Shown here in pieces: positions 500 to 7,347 of a stretch of DNA of 64,000 bases; within the stretch, counting starts at the first letter, position 1; every line of letters starts with the position of its first letter. The DNA comes from an uncultured SAR86 cluster bacterium (GTDB lineage: Bacteria; Pseudomonadota; Gammaproteobacteria; Magnimaribacterales; AG-339-G14). The stretch lies in contig CACEOL010000002.1 of NCBI GenBank assembly GCA_902561325.1, forward strand, positions 124,001 through 188,000, in the 5' to 3' direction. The notes below the pieces were generated by a model. The model worked only from the letters and a program-made list of their open reading frames with translations. It was not told where the DNA came from and did no database searches. A program made the translations under genes and the position numbers.

Positions 500-814
500 T
501 TAAGATAAATTCTTTTTAGTTGCATTTTTTTGAACGCTTTCAATTCCTTTCTTTAAGGAATTCTCAGATTTATATCCTTGGCTAGTAGCTATTACCTTAT
601 TATTCCCTGCAATTACATTAAAGAAGAACTTTCCAGCTTTATTTTTTAAAATTCTAAAAGATTTTTTCTTTTTAGAATTTAATATTAAGGATTTCGCTCC
701 TTTGGAGCATGCACTTTTTGTAGTGTAGGACTGACTAGCACATATTATTTCCCCATTTTTAGCTTTTAACCTAAATCTAAATTTTCCAGATTTATCTTTA
801 TATATCTCAAACAA
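500..814 (-). CDS. YegP/DUF1508-family protein with two tandem repeats
   Basis: Repeats FEIYKDKSGKFRFRLKAKNGEIICASQSYTTKSACSKG and FRILKNKAGKFFFNVIAGNNKVIATSQGYKSENSLKKG. Confidence 0.8.
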   Translation of the reverse strand: MFEIYKDKSGKFRFRLKAKNGEIICASQSYTTKSACSKGAKSLILNSKKKKSFRILKNKAGKFFFNVIAGNNKVIATSQGYKSENSLKKGIESVQKNATKKNLS

Positions 815-891: not shown

Positions 892-1920
892 ATGAAACTT
901 TTTGAAAAGTATTTTAATGATTTCATTGGATATTTAATTCTTCTAAATGTTATCCATCAAATATTAGTCTCTGGATATTCGTTATCCGACAACCTATCAA
1001 CTTTATCAGAAAACTTTATTTTATTTTCTTTCATCATTTATATATTTGAAGCAATTTTAAGAATTTACAAAGAGAGAAAATTTTCAACCTTACTTTTAAT
1101 TGATATTGTTGTTATTTTTAATCATCTATTTATTAGTATCATTGATTTAAGAATCTTCAGAATTTTTAGAGCTTATTCAATTTTTAGTCGATTCAGAATT
1201 TTACTTCCAACAAATACATTGTTAAAAACAATATGGAAACAAAGGCTTTCAATATTAGGAACTCAAATCGTTGTCTTTTCTCTGCTCTTAATATTTTCAG
1301 TAATTATCCATTTTCTTGAAAAGGATCTTCAGCCAGAAGCATTTGGAAATATACTTGATTCAATGTGGTATGGAATAGCTACTCTTACTACTGTTGGATA
1401 TGGCGATGTCACTCCTGTCTCTGATTTAGGAAAACTTATTTCCAGTTTTGCAATGTTTTTAGGTATTGCTATGTTTGCTTTGCCAGCAGCAATTCTTGCT
1501 TCAGCTTATTATGAGGATATTCAGAAAAGAAATTTTTTAGTTTCACTTGAGGCAATAACAGAAATAAATTTATTTTCAACTCTTCCTATAGGAGCAATTA
1601 CTAAAATAAATTCAAAACTAGAACCGTTAGTTTTACCAGCAAAACAAATTATTTTTGAAAAGGGGGATATTGCAGATGCTCTATACATAATTGAATTTGG
1701 CAGTGTACAAGTAGAAATTGAAACTCCAGTTGTATTAGGTTCTGGAGATTATTTTGGAGAAACTGGCTTAATAAGCCAAGCAGAAAGAAATGCAACTATA
1801 TCTGTATTAGAGGAGGCTAAACTGTTAAAGCTTTCAAAGGAATCTTTAGATGAATTAACTGATGAATATCCAATTTTGTTTGAAGATTTAAAGAAAACTT
1901 CTGAAGATAGGACAGGATAA
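892..1920 (+). CDS. Voltage-gated K+ channel with C-terminal cyclic-nucleotide-binding domain
   Basis: Selectivity filter TLTTVGYGDVTP; Arg-rich S4-like DLRIFRIFRAYSIFSRFRIL; C-terminal phosphate-binding-cassette-like GDYFGETGLISQAERNATI. Confidence 0.88.
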   Translation: MKLFEKYFNDFIGYLILLNVIHQILVSGYSLSDNLSTLSENFILFSFIIYIFEAILRIYKERKFSTLLLIDIVVIFNHLFISIIDLRIFRIFRAYSIFSRFRILLPTNTLLKTIWKQRLSILGTQIVVFSLLLIFSVIIHFLEKDLQPEAFGNILDSMWYGIATLTTVGYGDVTPVSDLGKLISSFAMFLGIAMFALPAAILASAYYEDIQKRNFLVSLEAITEINLFSTLPIGAITKINSKLEPLVLPAKQIIFEKGDIADALYIIEFGSVQVEIETPVVLGSGDYFGETGLISQAERNATISVLEEAKLLKLSKESLDELTDEYPILFEDLKKTSEDRTG

Positions 1921-1922
1921 TT

Positions 1923-3020
1923 TTATGATTCTATTTCGTGGCTGGATTCAACATAAACTGATCTAGATGGGAAAGCGAAGTCAGATCCATTTTCTCTAAC
2001 AATTTCCATTACTTTATGCACAAGCTTTTGCTTTAAGTCAGTGTAGTGAGAATAATCTCTCTCGGCTGAATAGCATAGAATTTCAACATCAATTGAACTT
2101 GCTCCAAACTCAACTGCTTTTGCAAAAGATTCTTGCCCAGGATTGATTGCAAAGCCTTCCTTGTCATTATTTATGTATTCGCCTATTTCATCACATATTG
2201 ATTTCAGTTGTTCTACTGAAGTTGAGTATAAAAGATTAATCTGCCATTTAATTCTTCTATATCTTAACTCTCCATGATTAGTTACATTGACATCTGAAAG
2301 GTCTTTATTAGGAATTATCATAGGCGAAGTATTAAAAAGTCTTATCATAGTTGATCTAAATCCAATGGTTTCCACGATTCCGTGTAATTTACCATCAACC
2401 TCTATTCTGTCTCCAGGTTGAAATCTATTTTCTGCAATAATAAGGATTCCTGAAATAAGATTTTTAAACAAATCTTGAGCTCCTAAAGCTACGGCAACAG
2501 AAAAAAGACCTAACCCAGCAATAATAGGTCCTATTTCAACTCCAAATATATCTAAAATAATAGCAATAGCTAAAATCCAAATTAGAACTCTTGTAAATCT
2601 TTCTAACCACATAGACAAAGCTGCAGTTACCCAAGATTTTATTGCGAGAAGTTCAAAGATTGGTCCGATTGCTTTTGTAAGAACACTAAATATTGTAAAA
2701 GCAATTAAGGCTTTTACTGAATTAGTTAAAAAAACATCTGCAATTCCAGATAAAGGTAATAACTCTATTATTAGGTAAAGCCCTAAAGCTAGAGGAACAT
2801 TTCCAATGGGCTTTTCAAGAGTTTCAAGAAGAATATCGTCTGCCTCTGTCTCTGTTTCTTTTGCTAAATTTTCTAAAAATTTAAATACTCTTGAAATAAT
2901 CAAAGCTCTCAAAACTAAGGAGAAAACTATAATTACTATTGAAATAACAACGTTTCCAATAGAAATTCCTAGGAAATCTTGATTCCATACACTGGAGATT
3001 AAGTTAAAGAAGCCATCCAT
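1923..3020 (-). CDS. Mechanosensitive ion channel, MscS family
   Basis: MscS core IIAGLGLFSVAVALGAQDLFKNLISGILIIAENRFQPGDRIEV. Confidence 0.9.
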   Translation of the reverse strand: MDGFFNLISSVWNQDFLGISIGNVVISIVIIVFSLVLRALIISRVFKFLENLAKETETEADDILLETLEKPIGNVPLALGLYLIIELLPLSGIADVFLTNSVKALIAFTIFSVLTKAIGPIFELLAIKSWVTAALSMWLERFTRVLIWILAIAIILDIFGVEIGPIIAGLGLFSVAVALGAQDLFKNLISGILIIAENRFQPGDRIEVDGKLHGIVETIGFRSTMIRLFNTSPMIIPNKDLSDVNVTNHGELRYRRIKWQINLLYSTSVEQLKSICDEIGEYINNDKEGFAINPGQESFAKAVEFGASSIDVEILCYSAERDYSHYTDLKQKLVHKVMEIVRENGSDFAFPSRSVYVESSHEIES

Positions 3021-3025
3021 AATTA

Positions 3026-3820
3026 CTAGTTAAAATTATACGAAAATACTGTAGCAAATCCCTCTTCTTTTTTTACTGCATTTGAAGGGGGTTTTGAGTC
3101 ATAAAATGTATTGTATTGAAGAGAAATTTTAAAATTGTCATTTACGTGAAAATCAAATTGACCTATCAATGTTGCTTTATAGTCATTAAATGAACTTATT
3201 CCAGGTTGCAAAAAAGCAGATAAATCAAATACTATATTTTCATCAATTAAAAATTCGCTGTGAAAATAAGAAGACAATCTAAGTGTATTATCAGAAATTG
3301 CTGATAAATCTTCCTCATTTTCATTTATTATTCCTATTCCTATTTTAAAGTTATTTTCTAAATTAAATCTTGCGCCTAAACCAATCAATTCCCTTTTATT
3401 AAATTTTCTAAAGGGATTCTTAGAATACTGTATAAATGCCTCTAAACTTGGATCTTTATCAAATAAAAAATTTAGTCTTAGATGAGCTAATGTTGCAGAG
3501 TCATAATTACTTTTATTTATTTTCTTTTGAGATCTTTTAACAACAAAAAAAGTTTCTAAATTATCTATGTTGTAGTCTAGGGAAGATTGAATAGAAAAAC
3601 TGTCTCTATTTCGATTTCCTCTAGAGAAATTTAGAGAACCAGAAAGGTTTGCAAAAAAACCTTTTTCTCCATCTCTTCTAAGATCTTCAACATTTACAAT
3701 AGCTTCTGAATATATAAAAGAAGGAATCAAAATAAAAATAAGCAGAAATAACTTACTTGTTTTCCGCAATAAAGACTCCAGACCAGTTTTCAGGCAAAGT
3801 TTGCTTGGATAATTCATCAA
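3026..3820 (-). CDS. DUF481-like outer-membrane beta-barrel protein; start may be a TTG at 3769 overlapping the cyclase stop
   Basis: Signal peptide (KLFLLIFILIPSFIYSEA), alternating beta-strand pattern, terminal FSYNFN; N-terminal part of ORF overlaps upstream CDS. Confidence 0.7.
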   Translation of the reverse strand: MMNYPSKLCLKTGLESLLRKTSKLFLLIFILIPSFIYSEAIVNVEDLRRDGEKGFFANLSGSLNFSRGNRNRDSFSIQSSLDYNIDNLETFFVVKRSQKKINKSNYDSATLAHLRLNFLFDKDPSLEAFIQYSKNPFRKFNKRELIGLGARFNLENNFKIGIGIINENEEDLSAISDNTLRLSSYFHSEFLIDENIVFDLSAFLQPGISSFNDYKATLIGQFDFHVNDNFKISLQYNTFYDSKPPSNAVKKEEGFATVFSYNFN

Positions 3821-5933
3821 TCCTTTCTAAAAATAGCGTGTAGTATAAATTAAATTCAGGTTTAGAAAACCTATATTTATCAATGTGTTCTTTTGCTTTA
3901 TTCCAATTTTGACTTCTATAATTAACCAAAAAATTTCGATGGTCTTCAAAAAAGGCTTTATCGGTATCGATTTCCGTTTTATCAAATACTGTATAAATAG
4001 TTACGGGTTCTGATTTCCCTTTTACTGCAATTGAATCAAGTTCATAAATTATATATTTTTCCTCTGAAAGTCCCTTGATTGATCCTTCTCCAAGAATAAT
4101 TTGCATTCCATAATTACTAGATTGCCCTTCTAAACGAGAAGCTAAGTTAACTGCATCTCCTAGTACCGTATAATCAAATCTTTTATTCGAACCCATATTA
4201 CCAACAATACATTCACCTGTATTAATACCAATTCCAACAGATAATTTATCTTCATTTAATCTATTTAAATCTATATTCAATTGCTCTAAAGCTTTAGTCA
4301 TTGCAAAAGCTGCATTTATAGATTTCTCTCTGTGATCTGGATCTTCTGATGGAGCGTTCCAAAATGCCATAATACAATCACCCATGTATTTATCTATAGT
4401 CCCTTGATTATTCAAAATTTCATTTGACAGAACAGTTAATAAATTATTTATTAAGTCGGTTAAGGCTTCTGGATCACTTTTATATTTTTCAGAAATTGAA
4501 GTGAAACCTCTTATATCAGAGAATAGAAATGTCATTTCTTTTCGTTCTCCCCCTAATTTGAGAGATTCACTAGATTTTGCTAATTTTTCTACCATTACCG
4601 GCGACATATACTGAGAAAAGGCATTTCTTACCTTGCTTCTTTCTAATTCGGTAAAGAGAAAATTAAAAAAGGTGACTACCAGATAACATAAAAGACAAAT
4701 CACCAGTGGAGATATAGGATCTATAAGATAACTATAATTATTAAAAATATAGTAACTTCCTAAAATTGAAATACTATTCCCAAAAATAAAGACAGATAAA
4801 CCTCCTATAGGTCCTAAAGATTGGATAAAAAAAGTAATCAACAGAGCAAGTATAATTCCAGTTATCAGTTCCAAACCAAAAATCCAATCAGGTCTTTTAA
4901 GAAATTGTCCAGAAAGAATTTGATCAGTTAAATTAGCAATTATATTAACTCCAGGAACGTTATTTTCTAAAGGCGTGGATCTTAAATCAAATAATCCAGG
5001 AGCACTTGTTCCGACAATTAGAATTTTCCCTTCAAAGAAGTCAGCTGAATAATTAGAGCTCAGGACTTCCCAAATTGGAATGGTTTTAATAGGTTTTTTA
5101 GAATAATGAATCCATGCAGATCCATCTTCGTTTGTTGGAATGATTAGATTTCCTAATTTAACATGATTTATCCCAGTTTCTTCTCCAAAAGCCGTCTCTC
5201 CAGAGGCATTTGATGATTTTATCTGATAAGTAGACGCGCCAATGGCAACTCTTAAAATCTCTAATCCCAAAGAAGGAACTAAAGAATCATTTATATTTTC
5301 AAAAAGAGGAAGTCTTCTTATTATTGAGTCATTATTTCCTATACTCATGCTTCCTATGCCTTGGGCAGAATTGTCTAAAATATTCAAATTAGTTTGGATA
5401 CCTGAATATTTTTGTAGAAATTTTCTAGGATTATCGCCTTGCTCTATTAAGCCAAATTTTGATTTAAATGAATTATCTAAAGAATTACTTGGTATAGATC
5501 CTAAAACTACTCTCCCATGATTTTTTATTGACCTAGCAAATATATCGTCATTATCAGGGACTTCATTAAGTATATTTTGAAGAGATGGATTATCTTTATA
5601 TTGTTTTTTTAGTTCTTTTGAACCTGTTCTATCAAACTCAGCAAAAACAATATCAAAACCTAAAGAAGCAGATAGATATGTTTTGTCTACCAATTTTCCA
5701 AGAACACTTCTAGGCCAGGGCCATTGACCTATTTCCTGAAGTGATTTTTCATCAATATCAATAACTATTACAGCATCCGAAGAAATAGACTCTCTTGGAG
5801 AAATATTTTGAAAGAAATCAAACGCATTATTTCTAAGATTAGCAAAAGTATTTAGAGGGTCAAAAATTGGAATTAAGCTTACAAATAATGAGAAGGGTAT
5901 TAAAAGATATTTTCCAATTCTTGAGAAATTCAT
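3753..5933 (-). CDS. Class III adenylate cyclase with CHASE2 extracellular sensor
   Basis: CHASE2-like N-terminus, three TM segments, catalytic FLFSDIRGFTSISE, TIDKYMGDCIMAFW, FDYTVLGDAVNLASRLEG. Listed ORF starts at 5960; MNFSRIGKYLL at 5933 fits better. Confidence 0.88.
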   Translation of the reverse strand: MNFSRIGKYLLIPFSLFVSLIPIFDPLNTFANLRNNAFDFFQNISPRESISSDAVIVIDIDEKSLQEIGQWPWPRSVLGKLVDKTYLSASLGFDIVFAEFDRTGSKELKKQYKDNPSLQNILNEVPDNDDIFARSIKNHGRVVLGSIPSNSLDNSFKSKFGLIEQGDNPRKFLQKYSGIQTNLNILDNSAQGIGSMSIGNNDSIIRRLPLFENINDSLVPSLGLEILRVAIGASTYQIKSSNASGETAFGEETGINHVKLGNLIIPTNEDGSAWIHYSKKPIKTIPIWEVLSSNYSADFFEGKILIVGTSAPGLFDLRSTPLENNVPGVNIIANLTDQILSGQFLKRPDWIFGLELITGIILALLITFFIQSLGPIGGLSVFIFGNSISILGSYYIFNNYSYLIDPISPLVICLLCYLVVTFFNFLFTELERSKVRNAFSQYMSPVMVEKLAKSSESLKLGGERKEMTFLFSDIRGFTSISEKYKSDPEALTDLINNLLTVLSNEILNNQGTIDKYMGDCIMAFWNAPSEDPDHREKSINAAFAMTKALEQLNIDLNRLNEDKLSVGIGINTGECIVGNMGSNKRFDYTVLGDAVNLASRLEGQSSNYGMQIILGEGSIKGLSEEKYIIYELDSIAVKGKSEPVTIYTVFDKTEIDTDKAFFEDHRNFLVNYRSQNWNKAKEHIDKYRFSKPEFNLYYTLFLERIDELSKQTLPENWSGVFIAENK

Positions 5934-6006
5934 GCTAAATAAAATTTTATTTTTATCCAATATTAGTCTTATTTTTAATATAATCCTTTTTCAAATTGCC
6001 TTTTAC

Positions 6007-7347
6007 ATGAAAAACGTTCAGCTTTTGTTTAAAAAAATAAGTCTATTTATATGCCTTATATTAAGTATAAATCTTTTCACTCAAAATGTTCCACCATCAA
6101 TAAGCGATCCTGAAGAATTAAAAGCAACACAAATAGAAAGAGAAAAGGTATTTGATTCGATAATCGATGATCCTACTAATCTTGAAAATTTATTTAATTA
6201 TGCAAATTTGTCTATTTTAGTTGGTGATTTAGAGGCTGCGATTGGAGTTTTTGAGCAAATGTTAATCTATAAGCCAGATTTGCCAAGGATAAAGTTAGAA
6301 TTGGGTGTTTTATATTTTAGATTAGGAGCCTTTGCATCAGCTAAACGGTATTTAGATGATGTTGAAAATTATGATCCGCCTAAAGAAGTTAAAGAAAAAG
6401 TAGAAGTATTTTTAGACCAAATAGAAAACGAAACAAAACTATTCAAAACTCAATCAGTTGTTTCTTTTGGAATGGGCATGTCAGGCAATGCAAATGCAGG
6501 TCTTGATACAGATGTTGTTACCATAGTTGGAGATTTAGGAGCAATTGACTTGCAGATTTCTAACAAACCAAAATCAGATTTATATTATACAGCTGCATTT
6601 TCCTCTCAAATCACACAAGATTTAAGACACCCAAGAGGAGACACTCTCAATTATATCGTTTCTCTATCGAGGCAAACTTATAGAGATTTTTCTAATTTTG
6701 ATTCATCTACGGGCGTGTTCTCTTTAAATAGAGAGTTTAATATGCTTGATGATGAAAAACTTGGCCTAACAAATCAATCACTTACACCATCATTTACAGC
6801 ATTTAAAGTTTTTTTACAGGGCTCTGAACTACTTAGGTCTCATCGTGCTGAGGTTGATTGGAAAACAACATTGAGAGATTCCGGATCTTTTGGCTTAAAT
6901 GTATATCTTGATGAAAGAGACTTTCTTGGTTCGCAGAATAAGACAGGAGATTTTATCGGGGTAGGACTTAGTAGAAGTATAGTTTTCCCTAAGAGCGGTG
7001 TTTTCTTAAGTTATAAAACAAATTATGAGCATTTTTATGCAACTTCGCCTATTGAAACTTACATAAAAAGATCCTTCGACTTGAGTACTAGACGAGCGTT
7101 AAATTCAACAACTTTTGCAACCACAAACGTTGCTTATTCATATAAGGATTATGAAGAGAAAGACCCTTTTTTGGGATTGAGATCTGATAAATCCTTAAAC
7201 TTAAGATTTGGTCTAACCAAAATAATTGATTTGTGTTGGAATGCAGATTTTGGAGTAACTTTTTCAAATAATAAAAGTACTGTTGGACTATATTCACGTT
7301 CTAATGAGGGCCTAGCTGTAAAATTTAATTATTTATGTACAGATTAA
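6007..7347 (+). CDS. TPR-containing outer-membrane protein with C-terminal beta-barrel (Slam/DUF560-like architecture)
   Basis: Signal peptide MKNVQLLFKKISLFICLILSINLFTQ, TPR-like helices, then long beta-rich region. Start moved from 5932 to ATG 6007. Confidence 0.6.
   Translation: MKNVQLLFKKISLFICLILSINLFTQNVPPSISDPEELKATQIEREKVFDSIIDDPTNLENLFNYANLSILVGDLEAAIGVFEQMLIYKPDLPRIKLELGVLYFRLGAFASAKRYLDDVENYDPPKEVKEKVEVFLDQIENETKLFKTQSVVSFGMGMSGNANAGLDTDVVTIVGDLGAIDLQISNKPKSDLYYTAAFSSQITQDLRHPRGDTLNYIVSLSRQTYRDFSNFDSSTGVFSLNREFNMLDDEKLGLTNQSLTPSFTAFKVFLQGSELLRSHRAEVDWKTTLRDSGSFGLNVYLDERDFLGSQNKTGDFIGVGLSRSIVFPKSGVFLSYKTNYEHFYATSPIETYIKRSFDLSTRRALNSTTFATTNVAYSYKDYEEKDPFLGLRSDKSLNLRFGLTKIIDLCWNADFGVTFSNNKSTVGLYSRSNEGLAVKFNYLCTD

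Follow-up and report, generated by a model that had tools for sequence, protein, structure and literature searches.

A 64,000-nucleotide stretch of SAR86 cluster DNA (contig CACEOL010000002.1, positions 124,001 to 188,000; the whole stretch is called the window) carried five genes across window positions 892-7347. These genes probably form a self-contained circuit in which an envelope signal is converted to cyclic AMP (cAMP) and the dedicated target of the cAMP is a K+ channel and not a transcription factor. The channel, which ends in a cyclic-nucleotide-binding domain (CNBD), was the only cAMP-type receptor detected, which argues that cAMP acts on ion conductance and not on transcription. The genome is 1.17 Mb and 87% complete, and it contained only one class III cyclase (PF00211), the CHASE2 cyclase of this locus, and only one PF00027 protein, the channel. 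Table 1 shows the features of the locus and of related loci.

Table 1. Coordinates of the five genes, of a neighbouring gene and of two further features of related SAR86 loci (window positions unless a locus is named; ORF, open reading frame)
Feature	Position	Strand	Evidence or remark
MloK1-like six-transmembrane K+ channel, C-terminal CNBD, no C-linker, 342 aa	892-1920	+	Pfam; PDB and fold match to MloK1
MscS-type mechanosensitive channel, accessory	1923-3020	-	Pfam MS_channel domains
DUF481 predicted outer-membrane barrel, signal peptide, 247 aa	3026-3769 (or 3820)	-	PF04338, 6e-14
CHASE2 + class IIIb adenylyl cyclase, 726 aa	3753-5933	-	Pfam CHASE2 2e-49, Guanylate_cyc 2.5e-24
Intergenic region of 73 bp separating the divergent cyclase and TPR-barrel genes	5934-6006	.	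Sequence
Predicted outer-membrane TPR + 14-strand barrel protein, 446 aa	6007-7347	+	Pfam TPR; AlphaFold
Two-repeat DUF1508 protein	500-814		Between channel and DASS symporter; adjoins channel in g1 and g10
Extra ORF	L053:4090-4698		Same gap in L055, L056, L057, L060, L066, L076, L078, L079
Second Ion_trans-type channel	L098:2450-3205, L099:6830-7579, L047:3200-3925, L048:9051-9776		

An earlier sequence-only reading of this DNA had described a module of four genes (channel, MscS, DUF481 barrel and cyclase). All four were confirmed in place by their coordinates and Pfam domains, and a fifth, the TPR-barrel gene transcribed divergently from the cyclase, had been missed. The channel and MscS genes are convergent with stop codons 2 nt apart, and the TTG start of the DUF481 gene at 3769 overlaps the stop and last codons of the cyclase, both as described before. 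GGAG lies 6 nt upstream of this TTG, and translational coupling of the cyclase and the DUF481 barrel is likely from this arrangement. The ratio of nonsynonymous to synonymous substitution rates, compared with two relatives, was 0.02-0.12 for all five genes, which indicates that they are real and maintained by purifying selection. A promoter and terminator scan was uninformative in this AT-rich DNA. A viral origin was rejected, as the channel profile matched no relative in viral contigs.

A survey of 203 genomes of the SAR86 order showed that the cyclase and the channel are inherited together. The class III cyclase was present in 48 genomes and the CNBD channel in 45, one copy each time. Both were found in 44 genomes, the cyclase only in 4, the channel only in 1 and neither in 154 (Fisher 1e-38, uncorrected for shared ancestry), and where both occurred they were always adjacent. 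The adjacency first noted in this single sequence was conserved in three SAR86 families, and chance adjacency was ruled out by this conservation. Four of the five exceptions were located at contig ends or had the channel cut there, namely G038 and G057 (cyclase only), G016 (channel only) and G090, where the cut channel is in inverted orientation. Genome G184 contained a cyclase without a channel, and this cyclase was distant (26% identity). In G031 the cyclase lay inverted inside a 4.4-kb contig, probably through a fault of assembly. G037 has neither cyclase nor channel; its TPR gene was there, matched only from residue 82, and we infer an assembly gap. The TPR-barrel match was absent in 12 further genomes, 11 of them without cyclase and channel and one the partial locus of G016.

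The gene order was the same in genera g1, g3, g8, g10, g19 and g21, which represent three families: the TPR-barrel gene pointing left, then an optional helix-turn-helix-like ORF, the cyclase, the DUF481 gene and an optional MscS gene, all pointing right, and the channel pointing left. The constant set consisted of the TPR-barrel, cyclase, DUF481 and channel genes, while DASS, DUF1508 and MscS came and went and the genes flanking the module varied between genera. The protein trees of the channel, cyclase, DUF481 and TPR proteins agreed (distance r 0.90-0.95; cyclase-channel 0.94), and the SAR86 channels were monophyletic against nine outgroups with a support of 1.0. These results are most simply explained by one origin followed by joint loss.

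A single PF00027 protein and a single PF00211 protein were also obtained in two near-complete genomes, G176 (1 contig, 95%) and G027 (3 contigs, 96%). The PF00027 search showed no CRP-family regulator in the window genome, and a search of all 203 genomes for class I cyclases gave none. The other CNBD proteins of the order that were examined (G055, G065, G156, G157, G161 and G162) carry HTH_Crp_2 domains; a cluster of N-terminal cysteines like that of FNR was seen in five of the six, and the FGE...RxA phosphate cassette in none. CRP was rejected as a second receptor in module-bearing genomes, where a second CNBD protein occurred in G161 alone and was FNR-like. Genome G182 had a 961-aa protein with a weak CNBD match. 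Where the module occurs, the channel was therefore seen as the sole cAMP-type CNBD detected, in a set of genomes of which many are incomplete.

The channel matched Ion_trans (6e-19) and cNMP_binding (5e-15) in Pfam, and its closest PDB match was MloK1 (1e-36), with residues 116-342 aligned without gaps to MloK1 124-350, from S5 to the C-terminus. From the constant offset of 8 residues, E290 and R299 of the channel correspond to E298 and R307 of MloK1, so the Glu/Arg geometry of the CNBD is in exact register. The TVGYGD filter, charged S4 and C-terminal phosphate cassette reported by the sequence-only reading were all verified in 25 SAR86 channel sequences (identity down to 49%): the filter, which is of the T-x-GYGD K+ selectivity type, S4 residues R87, R90 and R93, and cassette residues E290 and R299 were invariant. 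The AlphaFold model showed six transmembrane helices, a pore helix and a CNBD, and its top fold match was cAMP-bound MloK1 (9e-17). Because of poor domain packing (predicted TM-score 0.39, TM-scores ~0.35), the model backs the fold class only and not the geometry. The gapless alignment leaves no C-linker between S6 and the CNBD, and MloK1 itself has none (PMC6093708). The SAR86 channel thus shares with MloK1 (Mll3241, Mesorhizobium loti) the six transmembrane helices and CNBD, the missing C-linker, the CNBD Glu/Arg positions and the K+ filter; it differs in that the SAR86 channels form their own clade and always stand beside a CHASE2 cyclase. It belongs with the MloK1-like prokaryotic cyclic-nucleotide-gated (CNG) K+ channels, and a cAMP-activated current is predicted from its sequence.

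ATG 5933, where the relatives also begin, is the most likely start codon of the cyclase (residue numbers rise by one if this Met is counted). The metal-binding D472 and D518, the substrate-binding K514 and the transition-state N595 and R599 were invariant in 24 sequences. The sequence-only reading had recognised both metal Asp residues, the Lys and the Asn/Arg pair correctly; the Asp that it assigned to the adenine-selecting pair was not found, and the position, seven residues before the catalytic Asn595, is occupied by Thr588 in all 24 cyclases. We take Lys514/Thr588 to be the class IIIb adenylyl-cyclase pattern. The top PDB matches were adenylyl cyclases, led by CyaB of Pseudomonas aeruginosa (3R5G, 7e-37), which also has Thr at the position of Thr588. 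CyaB shares the class IIIb catalytic domain with the SAR86 cyclase, and its solved structure comprises that domain alone; the sensory domain of CyaB is of another type than CHASE2. In cyclases like soluble adenylyl cyclase, Thr at this position has been taken as a sign of regulation by bicarbonate (PMC3383692), and bicarbonate control of the SAR86 cyclase through Thr588 is only a lead.

The DUF481 gene was present in every module locus that was not interrupted by a contig end. For the TPR-barrel protein, Pfam identified the TPR domain in 15 of 15 relatives, and AlphaFold (predicted local distance difference test 81) gave a TPR part and 14 strands with fold matches to OmpG, CymA, BcsC and PelB-type barrels, which include TPR-barrel export proteins. 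Slam, the surface lipoprotein assembly modifier, likewise joins an N-terminal TPR part to a 14-strand barrel. Searched with the Slam models PF24575/PF04575, the SAR86 proteins showed weak TPR_Slam matches in 4 of 15 (best 0.005) and no SlipAM match. Homology between the DUF481 and TPR barrels was rejected, as profile comparison showed none. The MscS protein contained three Pfam domains (TM3, beta and C-terminal; MS_channel 3e-18). MscS adjoins the DUF481 barrel in genera g1, g8 and g10, whereas the loci of g3, g19 and g21 have no MscS gene, and DUF481-MscS pairs without cyclase and channel were found in G056 and G146. For these two reasons MscS was rejected as a core component, and its earlier inclusion as a part of the circuit did not hold.

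Barrel proteins are coupled to CHASE2 cyclases in Sinorhizobium meliloti, where CyaK, CyaD1 and CyaD2 are activated through the outer-membrane barrel NsrA (PMC7529298, PMC13001267) in response to an external protein signal and not to osmolarity (PMC7529298). The cAMP of that pathway acts on Clr, a CRP-family regulator, whereas in SAR86 no such regulator was found and a K+ channel adjoins. NsrA, at ~1200 aa, is larger than the SAR86 barrels (247 and 446 aa), and the parallel drawn here is one of arrangement. Distant TPR-barrel homologues of other gammaproteobacteria match the Slam models, and at two such loci (L136 of G235 and L134 of G322) a Slam-type TPR-barrel and a CHASE2 class III cyclase share one neighbourhood, with the barrel homologues within ~6 kb of the CHASE2 cyclases and FecR-like genes. 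These loci differ from the SAR86 module in showing no ion channel, in having FecR-like proteins and in their larger distances. In G235 and G305 the barrel has a CNBD protein as its neighbour; the G235 locus (L136:7110-15687) comprises a CNBD protein, the Slam-like TPR-barrel, a FecR-like protein and a CHASE2 cyclase apparently split in two ORFs. This suggests that a barrel, a CHASE2 cyclase and a CNBD effector were already associated at an earlier time, and the K+ channel would be the SAR86 effector.

Channel-profile matches outside SAR86 were drawn from 369 genomes of the class and 399 of the phylum, and 33 loci were read. A neighbouring cyclase was observed at two of the 33 (G531 and G823); cyclase adjacency outside SAR86 is rare, yet it has precedents. 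In G531 (L090:8140-10841), a HAMP-type cyclase and a CNG-like channel lie on the same strand 2 nt apart, and the channel C-terminus with the CNBD is apparently frameshifted. In G823 (L129:8367-11196), an MloK1 ortholog has two genes directly upstream of it, one for an adenylyl cyclase and one that is small-GTPase-like. The MloK1-like channels of five loci (L125-L129) were ~90% alike, and a cyclase adjoins in L129 only.

In the proposed circuit, an outer-membrane or periplasmic signal would be received by the TPR-barrel, the DUF481 barrel or both, and the barrel would pass it to the periplasmic CHASE2 domain, by analogy with NsrA. The class IIIb cyclase would then convert ATP to cAMP, which would bind the CNBD of the adjoining MloK1-type channel and open it, and the open channel would shift K+ flux and membrane potential. 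The purpose may lie in osmotic balance, membrane potential, surface contact or nutrients. MscS is accessory and belongs to the locus in some lineages only. The link between cAMP and the channel proved stronger than a reading of the letters alone could show, and the MscS and osmotic parts of that reading proved weaker. The chances are about even that cAMP is solely an electrical or ionic messenger in SAR86, passing from an outer-membrane-gated CHASE2 cyclase to one K+ channel, with no cAMP-responsive transcription factor and the complete circuit in ~6.5 kb. Several points weigh against the circuit. The channel and cyclase genes are convergent and do not form one operon, and both the ligand of the channel (cAMP or cGMP) and its gating are predictions from sequence. 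No dedicated (CpdA-type) cAMP phosphodiesterase was found, the three metallophosphoesterases being ApaH, LpxH and YfcE-like, and a non-CNBD target of cAMP is possible. Many of the surveyed genomes are incomplete metagenome-assembled or single-amplified genomes, and MloK1-like channels outside SAR86 mostly have no adjoining cyclase, so the coupling is lineage-specific.

The DASS symporter, DUF1508 and MscS lie nearby, as does a second channel of voltage-gated type in some relatives; together with the DUF481-MscS pairs that lack a cyclase, they would fit an island of envelope and ion-transport genes kept together for osmotic or envelope use, with cAMP not mainly acting on the channel. This is unlikely, as most of these neighbours are variable around a constant set of four genes, the cyclase and channel are jointly absent across the order, and no other cAMP-type receptor was seen. 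A pathway that is real and differs in ligand or sign, with the CNBD answering cGMP or with cAMP closing or modulating a voltage-gated channel, appears rather improbable. Voltage may matter given the invariant S4 arginines, cAMP is just a partial agonist of SthK (PMC6093708), and the substrate choice of a class III cyclase can only be predicted. Set against these are the Lys514/Thr588 pattern, the adenylyl cyclases among the top PDB matches and the fact that MloK1, the nearest solved relative, was solved with cAMP bound. An osmotic safety circuit of the kind put forward by the sequence-only reading, in which turgor or osmotic stress would activate CHASE2 and cAMP would open the K+ channel, with MscS as a backup valve, is very unlikely. 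DUF481 proteins include YdiY, annotated as a salt-induced outer membrane protein, and MscS adjoins the barrel in half of the six genera; it is missing in the other half, and the CHASE2-barrel pathway that has been studied responds to a protein from outside the cell and not to osmolarity.

The component families of the favoured cAMP-to-channel circuit are known, and what is new is their dedicated arrangement without another detected cAMP-type receptor. The bacterial CNG channels MloK1 and SthK serve as structural models, and the literature searched gave no established physiological role for them. Neither a SAR86 cAMP channel nor a cyclase-CNG channel gene pair was the subject of any paper that the search returned, with subscription journals mostly outside its coverage. 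In SAR86, which is abundant in the sea, such a channel and one cyclase are genetically linked, and the role of a bacterial cAMP-gated K+ channel thereby becomes testable with a small, defined gene set. The results suggest that cAMP signalling may persist in genome-streamlined cells without the usual CRP pathway.

Further features were observed in related SAR86 loci. Between the TPR-barrel and cyclase genes of many genomes of families f2 and f3 lies an extra ORF (~200 aa) with a TetR-like helix-turn-helix N-terminus; it is missing in g1 and g3, and Pfam gave a weak DUF6262 match only. At locus L037 (G029), several genes including the channel and TPR genes were in pieces, probably through indel sequencing errors of the assembly. 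The second Ion_trans channel of voltage-gated type (~250 aa) adjoins the TPR-barrel gene in genus g3, and in SAR86 genomes that have neither the cyclase nor the CNBD channel it lies next to DUF481-MscS.

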